Shown here piece by piece: positions 22,005 to 62,219 of a DNA stretch of 64,000 nucleotides. Position 1 is the first letter of the stretch. The number at the start of each line of letters is the position of its first letter. A program made the translations under genes and the position numbers. The notes under the pieces were generated by a model, which was given only the letters and a program-made list of their open reading frames with translations, did no database searches and was not told where the DNA came from. This DNA is from Rhodovulum euryhalinum (GTDB taxonomy: Bacteria > Pseudomonadota > Alphaproteobacteria > Rhodobacterales > Rhodobacteraceae), in the NCBI RefSeq assembly GCF_004342445.1, contig NZ_SLWW01000007.1:62001-126000 (forward strand), written 5' to 3'.

Positions 22005-24998
22005 ATGTGCGCCGACATGCCCGACTACAAAGACACGATCTTCCTGCCCGAGACCGATTTCCCGATGCGCGCGGGCCTGCCCGCCCGCGAGCCCGCCTGG
22101 CTGGACCGCTGGGCGCGGATCGGGGTCTATGACCGGCTGCGGGACAAGACGGGGCGGCCGCCCTTCATCCTGCATGACGGCCCGCCCTACGCCAACGGCC
22201 ACCTGCATATCGGCCACGCGCTGAACAAGATCCTCAAGGATTTCATCGTGCGCAGCCAGCAGATGATGGGCAAGGACGCGCGCTATGTGCCCGGCTGGGA
22301 CTGCCACGGCCTGCCGATCGAATGGAAGATCGAGGAACAATACCGCGCCAAGGGGCTGGACAAGGACGAGGTGCCGGTGGTGGCCTTCCGCCAGGAATGT
22401 CGCCGCTTTGCCGAGGGCTGGATCGGGGTGCAGCGCGAGGAGTTCAAGCGCCTCGGCATCACCGGCAACTGGGCCGATCCGTACCTGACGATGGATTTCC
22501 ACGCCGAGGCCGTGATCGCGCAGGAATTCATGAAATTCCTGATGAACGGGGCGCTCTACCAGGGCTCGAAGCCGGTGATGTGGTCGCCGGTGGAAAAGAC
22601 CGCGCTGGCCGAGGCCGAGGTCGAATACCACGACCACCAGAGCCACACGATCTGGGTGAAGTTCCCGGTGGTCGACTGGGAGCTTTATCAATTCAATCCT
22701 GATCTGGACCCAAATGGAGATTGGGCCCGAGAAGAACATGAGCGCGCCGGCGTAACGATACCCTACGACAGCCTAAAAACAGAGCTATCGAAGGCAGCCG
22801 TTGTGATTTGGACGACTACGCCTTGGACCCTCCCTCAGAACAGGGCGGTCGCTTTCAACTATGAAATCTCATACTCGCTCTACGAAGTTCTTGAGACCGG
22901 TGAGAACTCTCAGTCAGCACCTGGCGATCTTGTGATTTTGGCGGATACACGTGCGGCACCTACCTTCGAGCAAGCAAGGGTGACACGGTATTGCAAGGTG
23001 TCACCGTTGACAGATTGGATTGTCAACGGCCTGACCCTTGCCCACCCCTTCCGCGGCATCGAGGGCGGCAATGGCGAATGGGATTTCGACGTGCCGATGC
23101 TGCCGGGCGAGCATGTCACCGATGACGCGGGCACGGGCTTCGTCCATACCGCGCCCAGCCATGGCGATGACGACTACCAGATCGGCCTGAAATACGACCT
23201 GCCGATGACCTACAACGTGCTGGAAGACGGCTCGTTCCGGCCTGACCTGCCGCTCTTCGGCGGGCAGGCGATCCTGACGCCCGAGGGCAAGGAAGGCCCG
23301 GCGAATGTCTCGGTCATCAAGCAACTGGCCTATGCCGGGGCGCTGCTGGCCAAGGGCAAGCTGAAGCACAGCTATCCCCATAGCTGGCGCTCCAAGGCGC
23401 CGCTGATCTACCGCAACACGCCGCAATGGTTCGCCGCCATCGACCACAAGCTGGACGACGGGATGGGCACCTATGGCGACACGATCCGCCAGCGGGCGCT
23501 GACCTCCATCGACCAACTGGTGAAATGGACCCCGCAAACGGGCCGCAACCGCCTCTATTCCATGATCGAGGCCCGCCCCGACTGGGTGCTGTCGCGCCAG
23601 CGCGCCTGGGGCGTGCCGCTGACCTGTTTCGTCAAGCGCGGCGCGAAACCCACCGATCCCGATTTCCTGCTGCGCGACCGGGCGGTGAACGCGCGCATCG
23701 TGGCGGCGTTCGAGGCCGAAGGGGCGGATGCATGGTATGCCGAGGGCGCCAAGGAACGGTTCCTTGGCAACGACCACGACCCCGAGGCCTATGACCAGGT
23801 GATGGACGTGCTGGATGTGTGGTTCGATTCCGGCTCCACCCATGCCTTCGTGCTGCGCGACCGGGCGGACGGGGCGGCGGACGGCATCGCGGATCTGTAT
23901 CTCGAAGGCACCGACCAGCACCGCGGCTGGTTCCATTCCTCGATGCTTCAGGCCTGCGGCACCATCGGCCGGGCGCCTTATCGCGGCGTGCTGACCCATG
24001 GCTTCACGCTCGACGAGAAGGGCAACAAGATGTCCAAATCGCTGGGCAACACCGTCGCCCCCGAGGAAGTGGTCAAGCAATACGGCGCCGACATCCTGCG
24101 GCTGTGGGTGGCGCAGTCGGATTACACCGTCGACCTGCGCATCGGGCCGGAAATCCTGAAAGGCGTGGCCGACAGCTATCGGCGCTTGCGCAACACCATG
24201 CGGTTCCTGCTGGGCAACCTCGCGGGCTTCTCGGAGGCCGAACGCGTCGACCCCGCCGACATGCCCGAACTGGAACGCTGGGTGCTGCACCGCCTCGCCG
24301 AACTGGACGACACCGTGCGGCAGGGCTTCGACGCCTACGACTTCCAGGGGGTGTTCCAGGCGCTGTTCAACTTCGCCACGGTGGACCTTTCGTCCTACTA
24401 TTTCGACATCCGCAAGGACGTGCTTTACTGCGATGCGCCCGACAGCCCGCGCCGCCGCGCCGCGCGCACGGTGCTGGACATCCTGTTCCACCGCCTGACC
24501 ACCTGGCTTGCCCCGATCCTGGTCTTCACGATGGAGGAGGTCTGGCTCGAACGCTTCCCCGGCGAGGACAGTTCCGTCCACCTGCACGACATCCCCGACA
24601 CGCCCGCCGGCTGGCGCGATGACGTGCTGGCGGCGAAATGGGCGGGCGTGCGCCGGGTGCGCCGCGTGGTGACGGCGGCGCTGGAAATCCAGCGCCAGGA
24701 CAAGGTGATCGGCGCCAGCCTCGAGGCCGCGCCGGTGGTGCATGTCGAGGATACCGACGTGCTGGCCGCGCTCCGGACCATCGACTTCGCCGATATCTGC
24801 ATCACCTCGGCCATCGTGACGACCGCCGATCCCTCCCCGAACGAGGCGTTCCGCCTGCCCGAGGTGCCGGGCGTGGGCGTGGTGTTCGAAAAGGCCGACG
24901 GCGGGAAATGCCAGCGCTGCTGGAAGATCCTGCCCGATGTCGGCACCCATGCCCATCCGGGCACCTGCGCGCGCTGCAATGCGGCGCTGGGCGGATAG
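22005..24998 (+). CDS. ileS: isoleucyl-tRNA synthetase
   Basis: Charges tRNA-Ile; 997 residues. The HIGH signature is in GHLHIGHALNK (about residue 68), and KMSKS is in GNKMSKSLGN (about residue 678). The editing domain shows TTTPWTLPQN and GTGFVHTAPSHGDDDY. The C-terminus has a zinc site CQRCWKIL...CARC. Start is the ATG at 22005; MPDYKDT four codons later is an alternative. Codons about 226-340 have strikingly lower GC and many codons rare elsewhere in the window (see the separate feature). The reading frame is intact throughout and all signature motifs are present, so the enzyme should be functional. Confidence 0.96.
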   Translation: MCADMPDYKDTIFLPETDFPMRAGLPAREPAWLDRWARIGVYDRLRDKTGRPPFILHDGPPYANGHLHIGHALNKILKDFIVRSQQMMGKDARYVPGWDCHGLPIEWKIEEQYRAKGLDKDEVPVVAFRQECRRFAEGWIGVQREEFKRLGITGNWADPYLTMDFHAEAVIAQEFMKFLMNGALYQGSKPVMWSPVEKTALAEAEVEYHDHQSHTIWVKFPVVDWELYQFNPDLDPNGDWAREEHERAGVTIPYDSLKTELSKAAVVIWTTTPWTLPQNRAVAFNYEISYSLYEVLETGENSQSAPGDLVILADTRAAPTFEQARVTRYCKVSPLTDWIVNGLTLAHPFRGIEGGNGEWDFDVPMLPGEHVTDDAGTGFVHTAPSHGDDDYQIGLKYDLPMTYNVLEDGSFRPDLPLFGGQAILTPEGKEGPANVSVIKQLAYAGALLAKGKLKHSYPHSWRSKAPLIYRNTPQWFAAIDHKLDDGMGTYGDTIRQRALTSIDQLVKWTPQTGRNRLYSMIEARPDWVLSRQRAWGVPLTCFVKRGAKPTDPDFLLRDRAVNARIVAAFEAEGADAWYAEGAKERFLGNDHDPEAYDQVMDVLDVWFDSGSTHAFVLRDRADGAADGIADLYLEGTDQHRGWFHSSMLQACGTIGRAPYRGVLTHGFTLDEKGNKMSKSLGNTVAPEEVVKQYGADILRLWVAQSDYTVDLRIGPEILKGVADSYRRLRNTMRFLLGNLAGFSEAERVDPADMPELERWVLHRLAELDDTVRQGFDAYDFQGVFQALFNFATVDLSSYYFDIRKDVLYCDAPDSPRRRAARTVLDILFHRLTTWLAPILVFTMEEVWLERFPGEDSSVHLHDIPDTPAGWRDDVLAAKWAGVRRVRRVVTAALEIQRQDKVIGASLEAAPVVHVEDTDVLAALRTIDFADICITSAIVTTADPSPNEAFRLPEVPGVGVVFEKADGGKCQRCWKILPDVGTHAHPGTCARCNAALGG
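22680..23025 (+). other. compositionally foreign patch inside ileS
   Basis: By hand count 22681-23040 holds 188 G+C in 360 bases (52%), while the next 60 bases hold 40 (67%), like most of the window. Codons such as CTA, AAA, ACA, ATA, TCA and AGG cluster here and are avoided on either side. Both edges are abrupt and fall within continuous, in-frame ileS coding sequence. The segment covers part of the CP1 editing domain, including the TTTPWTLPQN motif, and contains an extended stretch between PVVDWELYQ and SKAAVVIW. Allelic replacement by homologous recombination with an ileS from a lower-GC relative is the simplest reading. Confidence 0.8.
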
Positions 24999-61212: not shown

Positions 61213-62219
61213 TCCGGTATCTTCTCGCCCGCCTGCTGACCTTCCTGCCCACCTTCCTGGGGGTCACGCTGATTTCCTTTGCCTTCATCCGCGTGCTGCC
61301 GGGCGATCCGATCATCGTGATGGCGGGCGAACGGGGGATGACCGAGGAACGCTATGCCGAACTTTACCGCCAGTTCGGTTTCGACCAGCCCCTGGTGGTG
61401 CAATTCTGGACCTACCTGACGGGCGTGCTTCAGGGCGATCTGGGCACCTCCTACGTCACCAAGCGGCCGGTCTGGGACGAGTTCTTCGCGCTGTTCCCCG
61501 CCACGCTGGAACTGTCGCTTTGCGCGATCATCTTCGCCATCGCGGTCGGCTTGCCCGCAGGTGTGATCGCCGCCGTCAACCGGGGCAAGTTCTTCGACAG
61601 GGCGCTGATGTCCACCGCATTGGTGGGGTATTCCATGCCGATCTTCTGGTGGGCGCTGCTGCTGATCATCATCTTCTCGGGCAACCTGGGCTGGACGCCG
61701 GTCTCTGGGCGGATCGACCTTCTGTACTACTTCCCGCAGGTGACGGGCTTCATGCTGATCGATTCCGCGCTTTCGGGGCAGAATGGCGCCTTTGCCTCGG
61801 CGGTGCGCCACCTGATCCTGCCGACCATCGTGCTGGGCACCATCCCGCTGGCGGTGATCGCACGTCAGACCCGGTCGGCCATGCTTGAGGTGCTGTCCGA
61901 GGACTATATCCGGACGGCGCGCGCCAAGGGTCTGTCGCCGCTTCGGGTCAACGGGCTGCACGCGCTGAGAAATGCCATGATCCCGGTGATTACCGTGATC
62001 GGCCTGTCGGTGGGCACGCTGCTGGCCGGCGCGATCCTGACCGAAACGATCTTCAGTTGGCCGGGCATCGGCAAGTGGATGGTCGATTCCATCTTCCGCC
62101 GCGACTACCCGGTGGTGCAGGGCGGCCTTCTGCTGATCGCGTCGATGGTGATGATCGTGAACCTGACGGTCGACATCCTTTACGGGTTCATCAACCCCAA
62201 GATCAGGGCGCGGAAATGA
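61209..62219 (+). CDS. dipeptide-type ABC permease (DppB-like)
   Basis: 336-residue permease starting MIRYLLARLLTFLPTFLGVT, with the DppB N-terminal pattern RVLPGDPI. Six hydrophobic segments are seen. The EAA-like loop is EDYIRTARAKGLSPLRVNGLHALRNAM (about residues 230-257). Overlaps the peptidase gene and the next permease by ATGA. Confidence 0.92.
   Translation: MIRYLLARLLTFLPTFLGVTLISFAFIRVLPGDPIIVMAGERGMTEERYAELYRQFGFDQPLVVQFWTYLTGVLQGDLGTSYVTKRPVWDEFFALFPATLELSLCAIIFAIAVGLPAGVIAAVNRGKFFDRALMSTALVGYSMPIFWWALLLIIIFSGNLGWTPVSGRIDLLYYFPQVTGFMLIDSALSGQNGAFASAVRHLILPTIVLGTIPLAVIARQTRSAMLEVLSEDYIRTARAKGLSPLRVNGLHALRNAMIPVITVIGLSVGTLLAGAILTETIFSWPGIGKWMVDSIFRRDYPVVQGGLLLIASMVMIVNLTVDILYGFINPKIRARK

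Follow-up and report, generated by a model that had tools for sequence, protein, structure and literature searches.

A low-GC segment of ileS in Rhodovulum euryhalinum as a possible version of a hypervariable, repeatedly replaced synthetase module

Introduction

Mosaic genes produced by intragenic homologous recombination are known from penA, pbp2x and genes of the kind used in multilocus sequence typing (MLST), and polymorphic specificity loci from HsdS target domains and O-antigen genes. Here we analyse ileS, the gene for isoleucyl-tRNA synthetase (IleRS), in a stretch of 64,000 nucleotides from Rhodovulum euryhalinum (the window; positions 62,001 to 126,000 of contig NZ_SLWW01000007.1), in which a segment of low GC content encodes part of the CP1 editing domain. 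Synthetases are usually regarded as slow-changing housekeeping enzymes, inherited or transferred whole. We judge the case to be evenly poised that this segment represents one of many forms of a hypervariable module, repeatedly replaced like the corresponding modules of four more synthetases in the genus of the window.

How does this locus compare with the systems already described? As in penA and pbp2x, composition and divergence change sharply within a conserved gene whose reading frame is kept; here, however, five essential synthetases of one genus are involved, no donor was found, and the inserts are in part unrelated rather than homologous alleles. HsdS and O-antigen loci likewise come in many versions, with GC content below that of the genome, conserved flanks and some sharing between species, but they encode recognition or surface structures, whereas the present genes encode housekeeping enzymes and are known from one genome per species. 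The feature of many divergent versions at one conserved site is indeed present (98 ileS loops in 62 families; four aspS inserts). We nevertheless do not class the site as a polymorphic locus, since positive selection on residues was not seen and each species is represented by a single genome. Rickettsia palindromic elements are likewise in-frame inserts in protein genes, from which the ileS insert differs in having neither a strong palindrome nor a second copy in its own genome.

There is precedent for attack on synthetases in bacterial conflicts. Toxins inactivate synthetases, HipA acting on GltX, HipT on TrpS, and Caulobacter HipA1 and HipA2 being further cases (PMC8262856), and agrocin 84 acts on LeuRS (PMC5059758). 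These targets are mostly other synthetases, however, and are not linked to the present inserts. In the open-access literature, so far as its text was accessible, we found no earlier report of such module turnover in synthetases.

Results

The gene and the parts of it that concern us are the following, where GC3 is the GC content at third codon positions.

22005..24998, plus strand: ileS, isoleucyl-tRNA synthetase, 997 residues, with PF00133 and TIGR00392 (781 bits, cut-off 621)
22665..23039, plus strand: low-GC module, probably replaced, codons 221-345, GC3 0.56 against 0.89
22665..22799, plus strand: hypervariable loop flanked by IWVKF and VVIWTTTPW, residues 221-265, the sole member of its family among the 98 longer loops
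22800..23039, plus strand: part of the CP1 editing domain, homologous but strongly diverged, residues 266-345
22809..22829, plus strand: T-rich editing motif WTTTPWT, residues 269-275, kept
23112..23138, plus strand: HVTDDAGTG, the second editing motif, residues 370-378, not part of the replaced module

The product is an ordinary IleRS, as its score above the curated TIGR00392 cut-off and the presence of PF00133 indicate, and ileS is single in its genome, three further matches being partial and to other synthetases. A reading made from the sequence alone had counted by hand about 52% GC in the segment and about 66% elsewhere, with sharp edges and an intact frame. Measurement bears this out: codons 221-345 have a GC content of 0.531 and a GC3 of 0.560, the remainder of the gene 0.666 and 0.890, the drop is sharp-edged, and the frame runs through it. 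A change-point scan places the dip at codons 224-339 with a log-likelihood ratio (LLR) of 38.9, the highest among the 798 open reading frames (ORFs) of at least 200 residues tested in 1.264 Mb of the genome. The extra residues thought to lie between PVV and AAVVIW are also real, since the loop has 44 residues here, whereas seven species of the genus have a short one, of 13 residues in six of them and 11 in the seventh. The low-GC stretch exceeds these extra residues and also takes in a homologous part from WTTTPWT to AHPF. WTTTPWT and HVTxxAGTG, which we take to be the editing motifs of IleRS, are invariant in 21 of 21 aligned IleRS sequences, and WTTTPWT falls within the low-GC segment.

The closest relatives carry other versions. 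All 16 genomes of the genus have ileS, and none of the other 15 carries the segment of the window, whereas close relatives would be expected to carry it if it were an old trait of the lineage. The clade of the window (L001, L005, L006 and L007; backbone tree support 100/100) has four different loops between IWVKF and WTTTPW in its four species. L001, the gene of the window, shares 97% identity with L005 and 96% with L007 over 200 codons that follow the segment, with synonymous divergences (dS) of 0.41 and 0.21. Over the 70 residues after the loop it is 37% identical to L005 and 41% to L007, and synonymous sites have reached or nearly reached saturation: dS is 3.06 against L005 and lies outside the range of the formula against L007. 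In the segment tree the branches of L001 and L005 measure 1.5 and 1.08, in the backbone tree 0.045 and 0.019. Thus, of the proposed recombination with a distant ileS, a fairly recent replacement by divergent DNA stands up, to judge from a saturated segment beside a downstream dS of 0.21 and 0.41, while the distant donor was not found. What points to replacement in ileS is the length of the branches together with GC3 and the saturation of synonymous sites; topology contributes nothing to it.

The valS and leuS genes of the 16 species served as controls, and the same pattern appeared in them, as it did in aspS and hisS. The module sites lie before DPDVLDTWF in ValRS, before KMSKS in LeuRS, between MGYIFW and AGPLAK in AspRS, and in the region before GLGYYTG in HisRS. 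Counting a version as low when its GC3 is more than 0.12 below the rest, with empty aspS sites entered as zero, low-GC3 versions occur in 4 of 16 species for ileS, 9 of 15 for valS (15 species parsed, G003 left out), 6 of 16 for leuS, 4 of 16 for aspS and 9 of 16 for hisS. These cases cluster by species: all five genes are low in the window species (G000) and in G012, and none in four others, one of them without valS data (permutation p 0.001, uncorrected for kinship). The claim that housekeeping synthetases are seldom mosaic is therefore untrue in this genus, where five are affected.

The aspS site occurs in filled and empty forms. Between MGYIFW and AGPLAK there are 8 residues in 12 of the 16 species and 54-77 in the four species of the window clade, whose inserts are mutually unrelated and have a GC3 of 0.41-0.56 against 0.89-0.92. 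In hisS, the insert of G000 is common to G015, which belongs to another clade (81% DNA identity, with flanks at 84-85%), and the sister G012 has a different insert despite an N-terminal part that is 93% identical; four comparisons underlie the DNA identities. In leuS, the insert of G000 resembles that of G005 by eye, and its sisters G011 and G014 are of the short type. Versions are thus shared across clades, against the ileS backbone tree, in two cases (hisS of G000 and G015; leuS of G000 and G005, the latter by eye).

These results bear on the earlier proposal that ileS recently received its segment from a distant species, under selection by a natural IleRS inhibitor or for altered editing. 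The replacement itself appears both real and recent, in line with that proposal. The same kind of replacement is found in valS, leuS, aspS and hisS, however, and AspRS and HisRS are not known to have a CP1 editing domain; in ileS the editing motifs are intact and no donor was found. As an account of a one-off event in ileS the proposal is not supported, and we regard it as quite improbable.

Separately from the modules just described, valS has a second variable stretch in the genus at residues 318-405 (L245-L260). Among the aligned sequences its low-GC version, about 20 residues longer than the commonest form, occurs only in the window species.

How special are synthetases among the genes of this genome? 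We scanned for internal GC3 dips in 1.264 Mb of it (33%), with 991 predicted genes, using a coding filter trained on the ileS, valS and leuS proteins and inspecting the runners-up by eye. The highest dips are those of ileS (LLR 38.9), aspS (36.2), hisS (29.0) and valS (26.9), followed by three ORFs at 16.8, 14.4 and 13.3, then leuS at 12.5, with all others below 12. The three intervening ORFs were set aside, the dip in each preceding what we judged by eye to be the true start, so that the five strongest dips surviving inspection are those of ileS, aspS, hisS, valS and leuS. Contigs C5 and C14 were picked in the knowledge that valS and leuS lie there; on the contigs not picked by content (C1, C2, C3, C8 and C10), aspS and hisS rank first. 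The synthetase genes thrS and glyQ, present in the scan sample, fall outside the 60 strongest dips.

Beyond the genus, we compared 150 distinct ileS genes from 95 genera of the family, with L183 unparsed and 3 duplicates dropped. A GC3 more than 0.15 below that of the flanks was found in 29 of the 150 segments, which is not an unbiased frequency since the rows come mostly from the top of match lists (genus g24 alone supplies 30 of the 100 matching genomes). Low-GC3 segments go with loop length: 0 of 55 with loops of up to 15 residues, 11 of 40 with 16-29 residues, and 18 of 55 with longer ones. The 98 loops of at least 16 residues form 62 similarity clusters, 49 of them singletons, and the site is hypervariable in Rhodobacteraceae. 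In 30 low-GC cases (29 becoming 30 because the flanks were averaged in a slightly different way), the drop in mean GC3 begins directly behind xWVxF and ends at HP[FL]. On the segment tree the low-GC state of these 30 rows requires 24 changes and on the backbone tree 25 (without a shuffled control), which implies that few of the states are co-inherited. In an outgroup set of 40 genomes from 35 other alphaproteobacterial families, the best 40 of 126 with a match and with the loop anchored differently, the distance between a fixed anchor and WTTTPW never exceeds 26 residues and measures 16-20 in 34 of them; a low-GC segment is present in 2 of the 40. These two, L219 (G726; GC3 0.66 against 0.95) and L232 (G765; 0.38 against 0.70), are strongly low, so that the phenomenon may extend, rarely, to other families.

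Could such segments be artefacts of assembly or contamination? Two assemblies do break at the ileS module, as an artefact might lead one to expect. Low-GC segments recur in many genera, however, including assemblies of two to four contigs (L120, L096 and L108), and their edges match the module; we find this explanation hardly credible. The two breaks, a 100-N run and a contig end, lie near residue 221 in L189/L196 (G047) and L195 (G079), and were found among genomes without the segment, which makes them a biased sample; breaks of this kind might be expected if co-existing strains differ at the module. In L186/L197 (G628; 5 contigs, 79% completeness) ileS lies in two open frames that split at the CP1 module, through either a sequencing error or a real break.

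One family of ileS loops, found in seven genera and mostly of ordinary GC3, has a conserved cysteine (as in DGCMRTDLL). Its members are L007, L008, L044, L046, L081, L104, L112-L114, L116, L119, L121, L123, L127 and L135, and it is perhaps an old version that spread.

What are the inserts made of? In 49 inserts with 2549 codons there are 0 in-frame stops where about 115 would be expected, whereas the two remaining forward frames hold 75 and 166; the zero arises partly by construction, since the inserts were cut from open frames and broken genes would be missed. Their GC at the three codon positions is 0.64, 0.43 and 0.53, which we read as that of genes from a genome near 53% GC. Where dS can be measured, the shared versions are under constraint: dN/dS spans 0.12-0.64 over seven pairs of related ileS loops, and the two best-measured shared inserts, the ileS loops of L006 and L009 and the hisS inserts of L380 and L381, both have a value of 0.12. 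Ten inserts of 44-119 residues gave no credible match in Pfam or PHROGs. We rejected an intein, no splicing domain having matched in Pfam among these ten. Folding of the RNA in the 49 inserts gave no convincing signal (codon-shuffle z mean -0.49, with 7 of 49 below -2).

AlphaFold models are weak overall (mean predicted local distance difference test score, pLDDT, 40 and 49), and we used local parts alone. In the IleRS model most blocks of the editing region reach a pLDDT of 60-90, a fair level, and the insert forms two helices between two strands, at residues 239-247 and 254-262 (local pLDDT about 60-85). Part of this model is matched by Foldseek with 1udz, an isolated editing domain of IleRS (TMt 0.71, root-mean-square deviation 6.9 A), and the editing fold seems to be kept. 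The AspRS insert is likewise modelled as helices between two strands, at a local pLDDT of about 64-80.

The inserts might instead be mobile peptide elements that enter synthetases preferentially and in frame, akin in effect to Rickettsia palindromic elements. Filled and empty aspS sites and the helical inserts of the weak models are in keeping with this. Against it, a second copy of the ileS insert was not found in its own genome (other inserts were not searched there), no common ends were seen in the aspS inserts, the ileS module has short or distant inverted repeats only, none of them strong, the inserts of sister species are unrelated, and the homologous part beside the ileS loop is also replaced. 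We hold such elements to be improbable. For the ileS insert in particular, a dispersed repeat was rejected for want of a second copy in its own genome, and a Rickettsia-type palindromic element for want of repeated copies and palindromic ends.

Another possibility would be that the sites are locally hypermutated, for instance through a diversity-generating retroelement, and that their GC3 drifts to 0.5. A GC3 near 0.5 and synonymous saturation between sisters would fit, as would some related loop pairs that are saturated while their backbones are not. On the other hand, other shared versions diverge ordinarily, the insert dS being 0.4-2.4 times that of the backbone in the measurable pairs. Moreover, insert lengths differ, sequences are unrelated, and no template copy of the ileS insert occurs in its own genome. 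On balance the dS data favour replacement over steady hypermutation, with faster change in some inserts possible, and local hypermutation seems to us highly unlikely. A retroelement target was rejected for the ileS insert because it has no template copy; reverse transcriptase was not searched.

Discussion

We propose, at the even strength stated at the outset, that the ileS segment and its counterparts in valS, leuS, aspS and hisS are versions of modules that are repeatedly replaced. The data show that sister species have differing versions of low GC3, that the module has defined limits in ileS, that the pattern recurs in five synthetases, that dN/dS stays below 1 where it can be measured, and that versions are shared across clades in two cases. 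Modules would be swapped in frame, again and again, for unrelated or strongly diverged versions. These would come from donors that may be of intermediate composition, with genes of about 53% GC, and would enter through recombination between conserved flanking stretches. More tentatively, toxins, phage inhibitors, bacteriocins or other proteins that attack synthetases may fail to act on rare surface versions, and the diversity may persist for that reason. That the modules of IleRS, ValRS, LeuRS, AspRS and HisRS are held diverse by frequency-dependent selection, with phages or competitors recognising the synthetase surface, is a more doubtful extension of this idea.

The main rival is neutral modular turnover, in which foreign DNA, brought by transformation or by gene transfer agents, is tolerated at permissive modules between conserved blocks, and which needs no attacker. 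Gene transfer agents are common among Rhodobacterales. The edges of the ileS segments coincide with conserved motifs, no positive selection appears in the measurable pairs, and the editing fold is seemingly kept, all of which would suit neutral exchange. Yet in the scanned third of the genome the strong internal dips surviving inspection occur in synthetases only, though many conserved enzymes have surface loops. Nor are the low-GC versions simply those of low-GC relatives: in the 11 low-GC hosts sampled the ileS loops have at most 12 residues, and none of the 30 low-GC segments lies in a host with GC3 below 0.65, so that the sampled relatives of low GC do not by themselves account for the pool. 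Neutral turnover is possible, in our estimate, though on the unlikely side.

Several points weigh against our proposal. No donor appeared in the genomes, phages, plasmids or viral contigs searched. Among 295 genomes of the family sample, the best-scoring match to the ileS segment is 49% identical and the highest identity among the matches listed is 59%, each over part of the segment; 390 genomes of the order sample gave no donor either. Residues 281-343, which exclude the loop, were scanned as an exact pattern against 84,980 species and gave one chance match, in Proteiniclasticum. Viral contigs gave 4 IleRS relatives at 37-58% and nothing for the AspRS and HisRS inserts; plasmids gave 10 relatives below 60%, and none in further insert searches; phages gave 10 weak IleRS relatives, one chance match, and nothing for the ValRS insert. 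Moreover, the low-GC ileS segments form no single donor clade (24 changes for 30 rows). The tree comparison of the two parts of ileS, which had been expected to reveal recombination, gave no conflict: in an approximately unbiased (AU) test with 16 species the backbone clade is compatible with the segment taken by itself (p-AU 0.27), the segment being short and its branches long. Synonymous saturation of the insert but not of the backbone is seen in one hisS pair and in three pairs of related ileS loops, so that not all shared versions diverge at ordinary rates, and positive selection on residues was not seen in any pair, the saturated ones being unmeasurable. Throughout, one genome stands for each species, the comparison of valS, leuS, aspS and hisS covers a single genus, the scan covers a third of the genome, and the census of synthetase motifs is incomplete. 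Finally, the present data do not identify an attacker of synthetases.

Among the phage records, H11 and H12 (Acinetobacter phage MD-2021a) carry an annotated ileS and are probably bacterial DNA.

Site-specific module turnover, affecting five synthetases within a single genus and extending in the case of ileS to many genera of the family, would be unexpected for enzymes of this kind, and it would point to an unrecognised selective agent or route of exchange. It also calls for caution in the use of these synthetase genes in phylogenies of this group. Should escape from attack prove to be the reason for the diversity, housekeeping enzymes would be behaving like immune-evasion loci, and each type of insert would mark an attacker yet to be discovered.

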